NCBI RefSeq assembly: GCF_021502675.1
Contig: NZ_JAKFHA010000001.1
Coordinates: forward strand, 245,378-298,949
Direction of reading: 5' to 3'
DNA length: 53,572 bases
From: Yinghuangia soli
Lineage (GTDB): Bacteria > Actinomycetota > Actinomycetes > Streptomycetales > Streptomycetaceae
A program made the translations under genes and the position numbers. The stretch's first letter is position 1, and every line of letters begins with the position of its first letter. Shown here piece by piece: positions 47,953 through 53,572 of this stretch. The notes below the pieces were generated by a model. It was given only the letters and a program-made list of their open reading frames with translations. It ran no database searches and was not told where the DNA came from.

Positions 47953-48030
47953 CCGCACCTTGCTCCGTGTGGCCCGCACCTCGGGCTCGGGCGGCCCGAC
48001 AGCTCAAGCCCGGACTGCCGGGACGGGCGA

Positions 48031-50148
48031 TCAGAACAGGAACAGCTGGTTCGCCCCGCTGCCCTGCTTTTTCCCCGTGCGCGACTTCCCTCGGCCGCGT
48101 CGGGGCCGGGGCAGATGCGGCACCCGGGCTTCCGGCGGAAGGTTCGCCCACGTCGGACGCAGTCCGTGGATCTGGATCTCGCCGACGAGTTCCTTCAGAT
48201 AGGCCCTGGTCTGCTCGTCAGTCGAATAGAGAACCGTGGCGCGGCTCGCGCGGGTCATGAGCACGTGGTACGAGTGCGTGACGCACCTGGCGAATTCATC
48301 GTCGGGCAGGGTCCCCATCCGCACGCTGGGGTCGCAGGAGCCGGGCTCCAGCAATTCGCGGATCCCAGTCTCCGGGTTCTTGGCGTCCTTGCCGCGCCGG
48401 AACTCCCACCGTCCGTCGCGGCGCACCATGTCGTCCCCGATGATCACGCCGCACCAATCCCATTCCAGTCCCTGCGCGGTGTACACGCAGCCGATCTGGT
48501 CGAGGCCGGCGTCGTACACGGACCACAACTTCGCGGGCGGGGCGTCGCCGGCGCAGAAGTTGTCGCCCTTGGCATTCCACGAACGTTTCCACTCTCCGAT
48601 GCGGATATCGGTCTCGAGGCGCCGTTCGTCCCCCTGCGGCTCGTTCCACGGCCAGCAGTATCCGGCGACCATGCGCGCGGTGGCCCCGGCCAAGGCCTCG
48701 GAGCGGATGATGCTCTCCAGTTCCTCCGGGCTGTCGGCCACCTCGACATGCATCAGACCGTCCGGAGTCCATTCCCGCGGCTCCTCCCCGGACAGCCCCA
48801 GCGCTGCGCGGACCCAGCGGATGTACGCGTCGCTGCCCCCGCAGCGGAACTGCTCGCGGAGGTTGTAGCGCCTCGGGATGGTGCCGTGCCGTGCCGCTGC
48901 CTCTTCGATAAGGCGCACCGTACCGACCTCGTCCGGGCGGACCGTCTGGCTCTCGTCGAGGAAGAACACGGTCAGCCGCGCGGCGTTGATCAGTTCGTCC
49001 ACCTGCGGCTCTGTACCGGTGCGCTTTCCCATCCAGTTGGTGGAGAACTTCCTGATCCGGTGCGCCTCGTCGCACAGCAGGACGTCGAGCGGAGGTTCCG
49101 GGGTGGTGACGAAACTGCTGAAGTAGGTGAAGCTCCGCTGGAACTCGGTGTCCCCGTAACCCACGTGCTGCTGCATGGCGGTGTTGAAGGCACGACTGCC
49201 GCTCGCGTATCTGACGGTCCGGCCTTCGGCTTCGAGTTCGGCCTTCACCTGAAGGCCCACGGCACTCTTTCCTGTCCCCGCACCACCGGTGACCAGGAAC
49301 ACCGCCTTGGCGGTGTCCCGTACCAGAGACGGCTGGGCCGCCTTGCCCAGTGCGACGGTCGCCGCGTCCATGATGTCCTCGGCCACGAGCTTTTGCCGGC
49401 CTCGCAAGGTGAAGACCGTGTCCTCGCCGCGCGCGTTGATCATGGCGTCGAGCAAGGGCGTATTGCGGACGTTCAAGCGGGCCATGAGGGCCTCGGCGGC
49501 CGATGCCGCGCCCTCTGGTGCGAAGTGGCTGCGGAAGTCGCTACGCAGGCGCTTCCTGCCATCCTGGGTATACATGCGGCCGCAGACACCGGTCGGCAGC
49601 GCCAGGTCAACGAGAGGTTTCACGGATTCGTCGGTCATTCCGTGCATGTAGGCGAATCCACCGCACTCGAATGTGATTCCTCCGAGCGGCCCCCGCTCCC
49701 CCGTGAACAAGTCGTAGTTCTGCTGGAGTTGGACGGTCGGGTGCTTCTTGCCCCCGTCGATGCCCGGAACGAACACCTCCGCAGCGCTTGCGGGCGTGAC
49801 GCGGGCCGCTTGGGACCAGCGCTTCATCTCGACCAGTTGCACGGAAAGGCCGTGGCTCTCGGGGTGGCGGCCGACGAGCACGACGTCGATCAACTGCGGG
49901 CCACCCGACGTCGGCAGGCCGTCGACGGTAGCGGAGCACTCGACGATCATCTGGACGTTGCCGCGGTCGGCAGCCACCAGATCGCAGGCAAGCTGGACCA
50001 GGCTCTCGGCCCAAGCCGTCCTCTCGTGTTCCGAGGCCGCGGAGCCGCGAAAGTACCGCCATCGTTCCGCAAGATGCGGCACCATCCGGCGTCTTGCGTC
50101 GAGTGCCAGCAGGTCGTCCGCCGACAGCTTCAGGAGCAGCATGGACAC
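48031..50148 (-). CDS. PD-(D/E)XK nuclease-DUF2075 helicase fusion (copy 1)
   Basis: A 705-aa protein. An N-terminal PD-(D/E)XK-like domain (IVECSATVDG, Asp in QLIDVVLVG, then QLVEMKRWSQA with E-x-K near 106) precedes a superfamily-1-like ATPase of the DUF2075 type: Walker A GGAGTGKSA (about 287-295), Walker B DVLLCDEAHRIR, then VFFLDESQTV, REQFRCGGSDAYIRWV, DQIGCVYTAQGLEWDWCGVIIG and ARCVTHSYHVLMTRA. The C terminus is a basic tail. GTG 50148 is the start; GGGGGA lies 9 nt upstream inside the conserved leader hairpin. Copy 2 lies 171 bp upstream on the same strand. The domain pair suggests DNA or RNA cleavage and unwinding, for example in phage defence. Confidence 0.85.
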   Translation of the reverse strand: MSMLLLKLSADDLLALDARRRMVPHLAERWRYFRGSAASEHERTAWAESLVQLACDLVAADRGNVQMIVECSATVDGLPTSGGPQLIDVVLVGRHPESHGLSVQLVEMKRWSQAARVTPASAAEVFVPGIDGGKKHPTVQLQQNYDLFTGERGPLGGITFECGGFAYMHGMTDESVKPLVDLALPTGVCGRMYTQDGRKRLRSDFRSHFAPEGAASAAEALMARLNVRNTPLLDAMINARGEDTVFTLRGRQKLVAEDIMDAATVALGKAAQPSLVRDTAKAVFLVTGGAGTGKSAVGLQVKAELEAEGRTVRYASGSRAFNTAMQQHVGYGDTEFQRSFTYFSSFVTTPEPPLDVLLCDEAHRIRKFSTNWMGKRTGTEPQVDELINAARLTVFFLDESQTVRPDEVGTVRLIEEAAARHGTIPRRYNLREQFRCGGSDAYIRWVRAALGLSGEEPREWTPDGLMHVEVADSPEELESIIRSEALAGATARMVAGYCWPWNEPQGDERRLETDIRIGEWKRSWNAKGDNFCAGDAPPAKLWSVYDAGLDQIGCVYTAQGLEWDWCGVIIGDDMVRRDGRWEFRRGKDAKNPETGIRELLEPGSCDPSVRMGTLPDDEFARCVTHSYHVLMTRASRATVLYSTDEQTRAYLKELVGEIQIHGLRPTWANLPPEARVPHLPRPRRGRGKSRTGKKQGSGANQLFLF

Positions 50149-50158
50149 GGTGTGTTGT

Positions 50159-50224
50159 CCCCCAAGGCACGAGAAGCTCGTGCGGATGGGGGCATGTCCT
50201 CGCGAAGGAAGCCCGTCGGACCGC
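50159..50224 (-). promoter_or_regulatory. conserved structured leader with SD-sequestering hairpin (copy 1)
   Basis: On the transcript of the minus strand a conserved 5' block GCGGTCCGACGGGCTTCC is followed by AGGACATG and the hairpin CCCCCA-TCC-GCACGAG-CTT-CTCGTGC-CT-TGGGGG. The G-run is the Shine-Dalgarno of the helicase gene, so pairing with the C-run should block translation. The AUG before the C-run opens a 21-codon frame starting MPPSARASRAL that overlaps the gene start. A TAGGAT -10 lies at about 50258 on the minus strand. Confidence 0.6.
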
Positions 50225-50319
50225 AGTCTGTCCGGATGATCCTAGACGGAAGCGTTGGCCGGCGGGTTCCGCTCGCGCGACCGGTCAGGAGTCGGACGAT
50301 CACCCGATCGGCCGCTTCC

Positions 50320-52203
50320 TCAGACGACCGCCATGGCCTGCTCCACGTCCATGAGCCGACGCAGCTTTGCCAGCGTCTCCGGATCCGTGGAGTACACGAT
50401 GGTGCCGACCATGCCCCGCGTCAGGAGGACCTTGTAAGCGTTCCGTACGAGGCGGTCGACGTCCGCGTCGGGGACGGACTTCGTGAAGGCAGGGTCGCGT
50501 GACTGCGTACGGTCGACGATCCATCGGTCGTCTCGCCAGACGATGTCCGGCCCGATGATGACGCCGGACCAGTCGTACTCGAAGCCCTGAGCCGTGTAGA
50601 CGCAGCCGATCTGGCCGAATCCCGCAGGATCGGTGGCCCACAGGGCGGAAGGAGGCGCCCCCGAGACGGATCGGTCACCGCGCAGGTTCCACGGGTGGGC
50701 CCATTCGCCGATCACCACATCGGGTGCAAGCGGCTCACCGGGCTTGGGTTCCGGCGACCATGGCCAGCAATACCCGGCGGACATGCGTGCGCCGTACCCT
50801 TCGGCCCGTCTGTCCTCGAGGAACGCCTGCATCTCCGCCGGACTCTCCGCCACCCGAAGCTGCATGCGGTCGTCGGGCTCCCAGTCCACCGGTCCGCCCG
50901 GCTCGAGGCCCAAGAGTCGGACGACCCAGCGCAGATAGGCGTCGCTGCCCCCGCAGCGGAACTGGCTGTCCAATGCGACGACCTGACATTCCAGCCCCTT
51001 ACGGGAAGCTGCAGCCTTGATCTCGTCGACCGTGCCCATCTCACCTGGGCGCACCACTTGGTGCTCGTCCAGCAGGAACACCGGAACGCGGGCAACGTCG
51101 ATGAGCTCGTCGACCTGGGGGCGTCCTGTGCGGTTCAGCGCCGGGGTGTAGCGGTTCGCCGAGGTTTCGCGAATGCGGTGTGCCTCGTCGCAGATCAGGA
51201 CGTCGAGCGTGTTCCGTTCCACGGTCATGAAGCTGTTGAAGTACTTGAACAGGTCTTGGACTTCACGCTTGCGGGCCCCGGCGACACGGCGCATGGTCTT
51301 GGTGAACGACTGGGACCCGGTGGCGTGCAGCGCGGAGATGCCCTGCCGGTACAGCTCGCCGAGCAGGGAAAGGGCGATCACGCTCTTGCCCGTACCGGGC
51401 CCTCCGGTGACGATCACGACTTCCTTGTGATCGGACTGCTTTGCCTTTCGCACCGCGTTCAGCACCAAGCGGTAGGCCACCTGCTGCTCGTCCAGAAGAA
51501 CGAACTGTTCGCGGTCGCGTACCTCCTGTGCCGCAACCGCCATGAGTTGCCGGGACGGCACCGTCTTGCCCGCAAGCAGTTCGTCGGCGGCCTCGGCGCC
51601 GGCTTCCTGAGTGCTGAGCTTGCTGCGGAGGTAGTCCAGGAACTTGCCCCGCGTCTCTGCCGTGAACATCCGGGCTGTGTCGTCCGCTTCGATGTCGCGC
51701 AGTCCTGCGGTCCCGAACTCGGTCGCGTTGTGGAGGTACGCGACGCCGCTGACCCGGTGCCGGTGCTCCGCGACAGCGCCGTTGAAGTCGACGAGATAGG
51801 CGCAGTAGCGGCGGACCTGTTCCACCGGGTTGAGGACCGGTCGCGCATACGCGTCGACCTGGCACAGTTCCGGATCTTCCTCGTCCGGCATGGCCTGGCT
51901 CCACTGCTTGAGCTCGACCACGACGTAGGAGGGTTCCCCCGTGGTCGGGTGCAGACCGGCCAACACGGCGTCGGCACGTTTGCTGTTCAGCGGCAGTGCG
52001 TACTCGATCAGTACTTCGACGTCGTCGAGGTGGGCTTCGATCAGCGCGTTCGTGAGCGCCGGAATGCTGCGTTCCCATGACCGCGCCTCCGACGGGCTCG
52101 GCCGATGCCCGTGAACGTGCACGAACTGTTCGGCGAGGTGCAGGAAGAGCGAGCCGTCCAGCACCATCACAGCAACCGTCTTGGCGGACGCACGGAACAG
52201 CAA
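50320..52203 (-). CDS. PD-(D/E)XK nuclease-DUF2075 helicase fusion (copy 2)
   Basis: A 627-aa paralogue of copy 1. The same layout is seen: Asp in RADAVLAGL and E-x-K in VVVELKQWSQA (near 98), Walker A GGPGTGKSV (about 264-272), LDVLICDEAHRIRETSANR, VFLLDEHQVVR, DSQFRCGGSDAYLRWVV, FGQIGCVYTAQGFEYDWSGVIIG and NAYKVLLTRG. TTG 52203 was chosen because the preceding hairpin carries the G-run Shine-Dalgarno and the resulting LLFRASAKTVAV aligns with copy 1 MLLLKLSADDLLAL; the sequence further upstream only translates leader. It lacks the basic tail of copy 1. The two proteins probably work together or target related partners. Confidence 0.84.
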   Translation of the reverse strand: MLFRASAKTVAVMVLDGSLFLHLAEQFVHVHGHRPSPSEARSWERSIPALTNALIEAHLDDVEVLIEYALPLNSKRADAVLAGLHPTTGEPSYVVVELKQWSQAMPDEEDPELCQVDAYARPVLNPVEQVRRYCAYLVDFNGAVAEHRHRVSGVAYLHNATEFGTAGLRDIEADDTARMFTAETRGKFLDYLRSKLSTQEAGAEAADELLAGKTVPSRQLMAVAAQEVRDREQFVLLDEQQVAYRLVLNAVRKAKQSDHKEVVIVTGGPGTGKSVIALSLLGELYRQGISALHATGSQSFTKTMRRVAGARKREVQDLFKYFNSFMTVERNTLDVLICDEAHRIRETSANRYTPALNRTGRPQVDELIDVARVPVFLLDEHQVVRPGEMGTVDEIKAAASRKGLECQVVALDSQFRCGGSDAYLRWVVRLLGLEPGGPVDWEPDDRMQLRVAESPAEMQAFLEDRRAEGYGARMSAGYCWPWSPEPKPGEPLAPDVVIGEWAHPWNLRGDRSVSGAPPSALWATDPAGFGQIGCVYTAQGFEYDWSGVIIGPDIVWRDDRWIVDRTQSRDPAFTKSVPDADVDRLVRNAYKVLLTRGMVGTIVYSTDPETLAKLRRLMDVEQAMAVV

Positions 52204-52208
52204 GTCTT

Positions 52209-52294
52209 CCCCCGGGCAGCACGAAACGAATCGTGCGGGTGGGGGCATGTCCTTCGAGACTCCGCCGCAGCGGAGCGGAAGCCCGTCGGGCCGC
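52209..52294 (-). promoter_or_regulatory. conserved structured leader with SD-sequestering hairpin (copy 2)
   Basis: Homologue of the leader at 50159-50224. The 5' block GCGGCCCGACGGGCTTCC differs from copy 1 by one base. It is followed by an additional small hairpin (CTCCGC-TGCG-GCGGAG), then AAGGACATG and CCCCC-ACCC-GCACGA-TTCGTT-TCGTGC-TGCCC-GGGGG, with TTG 5 nt after the G-run. Stem sequences are kept although the loop and flanks changed. Confidence 0.6.
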
Positions 52295-52559
52295 GACAAC
52301 GACGCTGCAAGCGTACCCGGAGCTCCGGACGGGGCCCGTGACGGCAGGCCACCGACCTACCAACCGGATGATCCGCTGCCGTTCAGGGCGTCCCCGGTCC
52401 CCCCGCTTGGTCCGAAGCGGTTCCGGGCCTTTCCGTAGATCAGTGGTTGATCGCGGCGAGACAGAACGGGAGGGTGTGGGGAATATCCGGTTCGTTTGGC
52501 TGTGGCGGTTTCCGGCCGGGGCCGGCCGCATCGTCGATCAAGTACAGAGGAGTGCAGGC
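52295..52559. other. divergent promoter region
   Basis: A 265-bp gap between the helicase leader (minus) and the hydrolase gene (plus). TACGCT (minus, near 52310) is a possible -10 for the helicase transcript, and TAGATC near 52436 for the hydrolase. No other gene is seen. Confidence 0.4.
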
Positions 52560-53429
52560 GTGGCGGATGCAGGGCAGAAGTCCGCGGAGGAGCTTGAGGC
52601 GCTTGACGTTGCGTACAACGTGCGGCGCGGGGTGGGGGAAGAGCTGTTCGGGCGGCTGATGGCCGAGTACCGGTGGAGTTCGGAGCGGGCGGTCGCGGGT
52701 GTGCCCGGGACGGCCGGGGTGGTGTACGACGAGGCGAGTGGCGAGCGGCTGGATGTGCGGGGGAATCCGGCGGGCGAGTCGCGGCCGGTGTTCGTGTTCG
52801 TGCACGGGGGTTATTGGAAGGCCCTGTCGAAGGACGACTCCGGGTTCATGGCGGAGATGCTGCACGGGCAGGGCATCGCGACCGTGGTGCCGGACTACAC
52901 GCTTGCGCCGGCGGTGACGCTGGAGGAGATCATCCGCCAGGTGCGGGCGGCCATCGCGTGGGTGTATCTGCACGGTGCCGCATACGGGCTGGACCGCGAC
53001 CGCATCGTGGTGGGCGGGAGTTCGGCCGGCGGGCATCTCACCGGTGTGGCGATGGCCGACGACTGGCAGGCGGAGTTCGGGGTGCCTGCGGACGTGGTGA
53101 AGGCGGCGCTGCCGGTCAGCGGGCTGTTCGACCTGCGTCCGCTGGTCGACGTGTACGTCAACGAGTGGCTGGGCCTCGATGTGCCGCGTGCGGAGTCGCT
53201 CAGCCCGGCGTTCATGCCGGCCGCGCGGCACTGCCCGGCGGTGGTGGTGGTCCCCGAGCACGACGGATCGGGATTCCTGGACCAGTCCCGGGAGTTCGCG
53301 GCCCGGTGGCCGGGTGCGGAGCTGCTGGTCGTCCCCGGTCGCAATCATTTCGACGTGGTCCTCGACCTGCAAGGCGCGGAGACCCCGATCAGCCAGGCTC
53401 TGCTGGGGTTGTTCCGCGGGCTTGCGTAG
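52560..53429 (+). CDS. alpha/beta hydrolase, arylformamidase-like
   Basis: A 289-aa alpha/beta hydrolase of the HSL/kynurenine-formamidase-like group. The oxyanion motif VHGGYWKAL (about residue 79), nucleophile elbow GGSSAGGHL (Ser about 157), acid in VPEHDGSGF and His in GRNHFDVVLDL complete the triad. The helical lead-in with AYNVRRGV and RLMAEYRW fits this group. The substrate is unknown. GTG 52560 follows AGAGGAG (52545-52551) by 8 nt; longer readings run over the divergent promoter. The last 10 codons are partly duplicated downstream. Confidence 0.88.
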   Translation: MADAGQKSAEELEALDVAYNVRRGVGEELFGRLMAEYRWSSERAVAGVPGTAGVVYDEASGERLDVRGNPAGESRPVFVFVHGGYWKALSKDDSGFMAEMLHGQGIATVVPDYTLAPAVTLEEIIRQVRAAIAWVYLHGAAYGLDRDRIVVGGSSAGGHLTGVAMADDWQAEFGVPADVVKAALPVSGLFDLRPLVDVYVNEWLGLDVPRAESLSPAFMPAARHCPAVVVVPEHDGSGFLDQSREFAARWPGAELLVVPGRNHFDVVLDLQGAETPISQALLGLFRGLA

Positions 53430-53494
53430 CGCAGCCGCGGTGCGCGACTGGGGGTTGTTCCGCGGGCTTGCGTAGCGCGGCTGCGGTGCGCGAC
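53405..53494. repeat. 44-bp tandem duplication of a gene end
   Basis: Units 53405-53448 and 53451-53494 share GGGGTTGTTCCGCGGGCTTG and the following 24 bases with two differences (period 46 bp). The first contains the hydrolase stop codon. Confidence 0.85.
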
Positions 53495-53499
53495 GCCGT

Positions 53500-53572
53500 G
53501 TGGGGGCGCCCCCCCGCCCGGGGGGGGCCCCCCGGGGTGCGCAGACAAGGGTGCGCCCACCCGGCCCCCCAC
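53500..53572. other. G/C homopolymer tail
   Basis: The last 70 bp contain runs of six to eight G or C (for example near 53508-53533) unlike the rest of the window and no gene. This may be a contig end or an error-prone stretch. Confidence 0.5.

Follow-up and report, generated by a model that had tools for sequence, protein, structure and literature searches.

A conserved 5′ leader that probably clamps translation of Schlafen-like nuclease-helicase genes in Actinomycetes

A leader of 80 to 100 nucleotides lies upstream of both PF09848 genes in the genome of Yinghuangia soli. Many actinobacteria have relatives of this leader in front of the same gene family; hence, it looks like a regulatory RNA that has not been described before and that probably acts across the class as a switchable clamp holding translation off. 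Comparison of the sequences supports the element and its broad conservation, its tie to a single gene family, the stems of the clamp, and a helix that competes with them. The reading that we favor, and consider reasonably likely, is a cis-acting RNA by which translation of the SLFN-g3 nuclease-helicase is held off by default and which can be switched, perhaps autogenously.

Two leaders and their genes in Yinghuangia soli

The window, i.e., the whole stretch of 53,572 nucleotides that was analyzed, carries on its minus strand two tandem genes whose products have a C-terminal SLFN-g3 helicase domain (PF09848). The gene of copy A (50323 to 52203, minus strand; TTG start at 52203; PF09848 E = 1e-91) encodes a nuclease-like N terminus followed by the helicase, and the gene of copy B (48034 to 50148, minus strand; GTG start at 50148; PF09848 E = 1.7e-88) encodes a paralogue. 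The leader RNA of copy A (52194 to 52294, minus strand), which has near-identical counterparts in relatives, matched the covariance model R1 with 118.2 bits, a self-included score, as this leader is one of the 21 Streptomycetaceae sequences from which R1 was built. The leader RNA of copy B (50143 to 50224, minus strand) matched with 49.1 bits (E = 1.4e-9). Other sites in the same genome gave only four weak model matches (E of 1.05 to 7.96). An 18-base copy of GCGGCCCGACGGGCTTCC at another locus of the genome (L003) was discarded as coding sequence, located inside a protein with repeated GGPTGFLG.

Both leaders contain GCGGyCCGACGGGCTTCC, AGGACATGCCCCCAyCCGCACGA, TCGTGC, and GGGGGA. An earlier note on this DNA had described two leaders with a common 5′ start sequence, and alignment of the copies located both on the minus strand. 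That note had also proposed pairing of the C-run with the G-rich Shine-Dalgarno sequence over a GCACGA/TCGTGC stem, and unconstrained folding predicted these stems in both copies (−49.4 kcal/mol for A and −39.2 kcal/mol for B). The resulting clamp hairpin P3 occupies 52209 to 52245 in copy A (minus strand; CCCCC...GCACGA, loop, TCGTGC...GGGGG, the G-run being the Shine-Dalgarno sequence), where folding and two-sided changes in relatives point to it, and 50159 to 50192 in copy B (minus strand), as predicted by folding. The variable hairpin P2 (CTCCGC/GCGGAG; 52260 to 52275 in copy A, minus strand) corresponds to a short loop in copy B. It had been regarded as an extra hairpin special to one copy, a view that did not survive comparison with relatives, since its model pairs are occupied by letters in 26 to 28 of 48 distinct rows. 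Upstream of P2 in copy A, GGGCTTCC (52277 to 52284, minus strand) may form the 3′ side of a weak P1 hairpin or the 5′ side of the competing helix, and downstream of it lies GGACATG (52246 to 52252, minus strand), whose counterpart in relatives pairs either with the start region or the upstream UCC and in which ATG is often ACG. In copy B, the GTG start codon and the next three bases (GTGTCC; 50143 to 50148, minus strand) are complementary to GGACAT (50194 to 50199).

A −10-like box precedes each leader, namely, TACGCT in copy A (52310 to 52315, minus strand; offset −21 from GCGG) and TAGGAT in copy B (50239 to 50244, minus strand; offset −20). TANNNT boxes were present at −22 in 70 of 85 type-1 leaders, at −20 or −19 in 39 of 47 type-2 leaders, and at −19 in all 7 type-3 leaders; the type labels T1, T2, and T3 derive from a loose pattern, and these counts retain at least three leaders wrongly labeled T1 (L001, which is copy B, L105:812, and L109:5913). 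In contrast to the nearly fixed offsets in Streptomycetaceae, the boxes of 20 distant leaders were found at scattered offsets. By inference, transcription would start about 10 nucleotides before GCGG. A start downstream of the hairpin, which the earlier note had named as refuting its proposal, is not indicated by these sequences, in which the promoter-like box lies upstream of the leader.

In the N-terminal parts of the proteins, an E-x-K motif and an upstream D are invariant (D78, E97, and K99 in 17 of 17 aligned sequences), a motif that we take to be that of a PD-(D/E)XK nuclease. Weak matches to the Nhi, AbiO, and PDC-S41 models only hint at phage defense. A sequence search for solved structures gave none at E ≤ 0.01. 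The predicted structure of copy A (mean pLDDT of 82.5) resembles SF1-type helicases, and a fold search placed RecD2, DSH9, Ighmbp2, Dna2, and SLFN14 near the top; since the TM scores were about 0.3, it is mainly the helicase part that is informative. As a side observation made by eye, G and C blocks at 53500 to 53538 of the window may form a strong hairpin after a hydrolase gene.

Distribution of the leader and gene neighborhood

The loose pattern GGACATGCCCCCN{2,40}GGGGGA gave 54 matches in 45 of 394 genomes of the family, in comparison to 7 matches for the reversed control pattern, and the hairpin was present in 50 of the 54. All of the best 80 of 555 relatives found by a protein search with copy A (Streptomyces and one Streptacidiphilus) were preceded by the leader. 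Altogether, the leader was present in 112 of 116 loci, providing 139 distinct sequences; the loci beyond the 80 from the protein search had been picked by leader patterns, and the four without the leader are chance pattern matches. In a sample of the class Actinomycetes, R1 detected the leader in 31 of 296 genomes, representing 20 of 115 genera and 12 families. Leader-positive genomes in four other families numbered 41 of 150, 12 of 85, 4 of 22, and 2 of 5 (partly overlapping earlier genomes). A second model used with strict filters on a phylum sample gave 6 positives among 396 genomes, all inside the class, and no leader outside it. The genome counts are lower bounds because searches over more than 40 genomes used stricter filters.

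A PF09848 domain was encoded 0 to 1,500 nucleotides downstream, on the same strand, of 38 of the 39 leaders in the class sample, and the 39th was at a contig end. This distribution fits autogenous control of the candidate kind, in which the leader is found with the gene of its own regulator. Conversely, the leader was detected upstream of 37 of the 55 helicase domains that scored above 170 bits in that sample. The 18 leaderless domains include 9 lower-scoring ones (177 to 236 bits) and three (L150, L152, and L155) that are truncated upstream by a contig end. An unfiltered search of 18 fetched regions, from 17 leaderless domains and genome G574, found the leader in the G574 region only. In three relatives, the gene is kept but no leader could be detected before it (L153, L154, and L163, the placement of the last being unsure). 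The leader in the G574 region (L164, 368 to 455) has an altered 5′ part, and its helicase gene matches only N- and C-terminally, as if internally deleted. Another Streptomyces paralogue (L105:812-894) is preceded by a divergent leader in which a good start-region stem is missing.

Of the 97 rows of a tree, 85 made up the leader group, 80 with the leader and 5 without it, 2 of the latter being cut by contig ends; the support of this group was 92, below the 95 mark, and several long branches make the details unsure. Since the leader-bearing proteins form one group, the leader is apparently older than the paralogues that are 37 to 43% identical to copy A, i.e., it seems to predate the paralogue split. 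A recent duplication as the source of the common leader was ruled out on this basis, copies A and B being 37% identical.

Among viral contigs, the core pattern occurred in 11 stretches, one of which was a model match (L175). That contig (IMGVR_UViG_3300047160_007876, loci L175 and L183), although classed as viral, may be a host fragment; it carries the leader, the helicase gene, a MazG-like gene, and an adjoining open reading frame that presumably resembles a transposase.

Among 62 loci searched, 30 had a gene for a MazG-like nucleotide pyrophosphohydrolase, a label that rests on Pfam, next to the leader; this count sets aside one further match inside the helicase of L121. This gene was divergent, about 50 to 70 nucleotides from the leader, or upstream on the same strand (L129, L130, L134, L136, L139, L143, L146, L183 to L189, L191 to L195, L200, and others), and none was found in the 80 Streptomycetaceae loci of the protein search. 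The MazG-like gene and the leader-helicase unit may form a two-gene module outside Streptomycetaceae. MazG-like matches were also present upstream of each of the SLFN-g3 helicase genes that have no leader at L156 to L162; two members of this lower-scoring leaderless group, L156 and L160, have a different N terminus, which we take to be GIY-YIG-like.

Clamp stems and the start-codon region

The covariation check on regions upstream of homologous genes that the earlier note had proposed revealed covarying stem pairs. In alignment A5 (77 distant leaders, 76 of them distinct), two-sided changes occurred at 3 of 6 pairs of the outer clamp stem and at 2 of 7 pairs of the inner stem. The whole clamp structure was 94.6% paired, versus 93.7% in shuffles, and had 7 two-sided cells, versus 0.9 in shuffles (0 of 500 as many), although pair-count shuffles ignore the relatedness among leaders. 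Its 5 two-sided pairs and covariation score of 0.090 compare with 0 to 4 pairs and 0.027 to 0.047 for slid controls; these controls reached 0 to 8 two-sided cells, and the 7 of the clamp are not distinct on cells alone. In alignment A4 (48 distinct rows), all 6 pairs of the variable hairpin P2 displayed two-sided changes. Type-1 leaders alone (n = 21) provided thin covariation support. P1 (GCCC/GGGC) was rejected as a conserved stem, with two-sided changes at none of its 4 pairs and 12 breaks at one pair in A5. Throughout the class, the stems are almost identical to the letter and the loops are variable. Prediction and covariation both point to conserved base pairing that involves the ribosome-binding site inside the 5′ leader, as in leaders that sequester the Shine-Dalgarno sequence. 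The low predicted probability that this sequence is unpaired at 37°C (group means of 0.006 to 0.067) speaks against an RNA thermometer with a melting stem.

A second stem, formed by the segment before AYGCCCCC and the start-codon region, is rewritten from lineage to lineage. For 46 representatives (42 genera, one viral contig, and three Streptomycetaceae types), the mean duplex energy with the own partner was −12.54 kcal/mol, versus −10.39 kcal/mol (standard deviation of 0.35) with shuffled partners, and none of 20,000 shuffles was as low, a figure that is not a clean probability because related genera may share stems by descent. Earlier sets gave 2 of 20,000 (n = 21) and 0 of 5,000 (n = 48, unsorted). 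The stem touches the start codon in 42 to 43 of the 46 representatives; examples are CACCGGAC:GTCCGGTG (L142), CACGAAGG:CCTTCGTG (type 3), and GGACATG:CGTGTCC (type 2 and copy B). The earlier description of the leaders lacked this closing stem, which most relatives and copy B possess. The stem is poor in L105:812, L214, L190, and copy A, which has lost the AAGGAC:GTCCTT match of type 1 and whose start codon is located in a loop of the predicted fold.

The near-perfect inverted repeat GCACGAG-N-CTCGTGC, with both arms almost invariant, might instead serve as a DNA operator that lies immediately after the promoter and is recognized by a repressor. We regard this as very unlikely, since the conserved internal loop is asymmetric, compensating changes occur in P2, the outer clamp, and the start-region stem, and the Shine-Dalgarno sequence and the start codon are themselves parts of stems, which are features at the RNA level.

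The short AUG-CCC-CC frame was not conserved. The codon before the C-run was ATG in 92, ACG in 46, and AGG in 1 of the 139 distinct Streptomycetaceae leaders, and ATG in 14, ACG in 6, and TGA in 1 of 21 distant leaders; hairpin lengths also varied by single bases. Because ACG replaces AUG in about a third of the leaders, the idea of an upstream reading frame fails, and a leader peptide whose translation opens the clamp, suggested by the ATG after AGGAC in both window copies, is hardly credible in view of this replacement and of the one-base length variation. The same ATG as the true start of copy A, with which it is in frame, was also ruled out, ACG being present in many relatives. Of the selected RNA switch proposed in the earlier note, the covariation upholds a selected structure that hides the Shine-Dalgarno sequence, and the opening of the clamp by translation of this frame has to be abandoned.

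A competing helix, possible modes of control, and relation to known RNAs

In a competing helix, found post hoc, GGGC (columns 12 to 15 of A5) would pair with the final G of AYG plus the leading Cs of the C-run, and UCC (columns 17 to 19) would pair with GGA (columns 81 to 83). In A5, which like A4 had been fitted to models containing P1, P2, and P3 but not this helix, its pairing amounted to 97.0%, and 5 of its 7 pairs had two-sided changes. Its 9 two-sided cells compare with 0.8 in shuffles (0 of 500 as many) and with 1 to 3 in slid positions. These changes come from few organisms (L140, L146, L191, L144, L227, and L137); in L227, the C-run base and both of its possible partners changed together (A, U, A). 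Ten breaks were observed at the pair of the GGGC base where P1 breaks 12 times. The C-run and GGA can take part in only one helix at a time, which suggests two exclusive folds, each with a covarying helix, and the predicted energies strongly favor the clamp. The competing fold was weaker than the clamp by 6 to 10 kcal/mol on average (3.5 and 3.7 kcal/mol in the window copies) and reached or fell below the clamp energy in 1 of 160 leaders (2 of 77 in a smaller set). It may never form, or form only during transcription, and, with energies predicted to favor the clamp, opening would need a factor or transcription kinetics.

The weakness of the open fold would also suit a static translational brake that, without any switch, keeps a harmful nuclease-helicase low. 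The clamp has the lowest predicted energy or comes close to it (group means for OFF minus free of 0.03 to 1.44 kcal/mol), and the start codons by longest open frame are GTG or TTG in 41 of 49 cases. However, such a brake would need pairing rather than particular letters, yet the stems hardly vary in sequence across the class, and the competing helix covaries. We consider the static brake rather unlikely. To a similar degree, we doubt that the leader is an orphan riboswitch, in which a small molecule, perhaps a nucleotide, would bind the invariant core and shift the balance between the two folds. The near-invariant core, the two competing helices, and the adjoining MazG-like gene would be in keeping with this possibility. 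Known riboswitches are usually found on several gene families, whereas this leader was seen on one only; moreover, no MazG-like gene was found in the 80 Streptomycetaceae loci, and no ligand is indicated. Both alternatives retain the clamp of the favored explanation, and their likelihoods overlap with its own.

According to the favored explanation of a switchable clamp, the default state would be the stable fold, in which the C-run pairs with the G-run of the Shine-Dalgarno sequence over the GCACGA:TCGTGC stem, thereby keeping translation off. In most lineages, additional pairing between the start-codon region and the bases before AYGCCCCC would close the clamp. In the second fold, GGGC..UCC would pair with GGA..GCCC, taking up the C-run and GGA and leaving the Shine-Dalgarno sequence free. 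From these features we infer transcription from the upstream −10 box, repression, and switching. Autogenous control is the first guess since the leader is tied to one gene family; our leading guess is that the helicase binds its own leader by recognizing the near-invariant core (GCGGyCCGAC and the CCC/UGCC internal loop). A broader version is more tentative, and we think it somewhat unlikely as a whole: a class-wide two-state RNA switch on Schlafen-like nuclease-helicases, often beside a MazG-like gene, that silences an immune or stress effector, clamps the start codon in many lineages, and opens in response to the effector itself or to a signal from infection or nucleotides.

Leaders that hide the Shine-Dalgarno sequence are a known kind of element. 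Autogenous leaders of RNA-binding proteins, of the ribosomal-protein type, are structured 5′ leaders that precede one gene family and hide the ribosome-binding site, and the helicase leader is similar in these three respects. It differs in that the product is a nuclease-helicase, binding is a guess, and no mimicked target RNA was identified.

The RNA family itself looks new: a covariance scan against Rfam 15 gave no match at E ≤ 1 for the window (48000 to 53572) or for 11 loci of relatives. Searches of literature mostly outside subscription journals, on Schlafen-like, MazG, and helicase proteins and on structured-RNA surveys, revealed no such leader, nor did the accessible portions of PMC11109978, PMC2864571, PMC6429828, and PMC12839542. 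The yjdF motif is, in the accessible part of PMC4793209, confined almost entirely to a single gene whose function is unknown and is listed for Firmicutes in that of PMC2864571. The helicase leader is likewise tied to one gene family, but on another gene, in other hosts, and with no known ligand. In the accessible part of PMC11109978, the structure of the dauA motif of Streptomyces includes a putative Shine-Dalgarno sequence, and the asfR motif is a candidate for protein-bound regulation. Like these, the helicase leader is a Streptomyces leader; unlike these motifs, reported there from Streptomyces and for other genes, it is present in 12 families of the class sample.

If this account is correct, the leader would add a widely conserved regulatory RNA to Actinomycetes and would provide a first handle on when the little-studied Schlafen-like nuclease-helicases are made. 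Since many Streptomyces carry the leader and it is short, the trigger that would open the clamp is directly testable. With a start-region stem that is rewritten by lineage around a fixed core, the family would also offer a natural experiment in RNA covariation.
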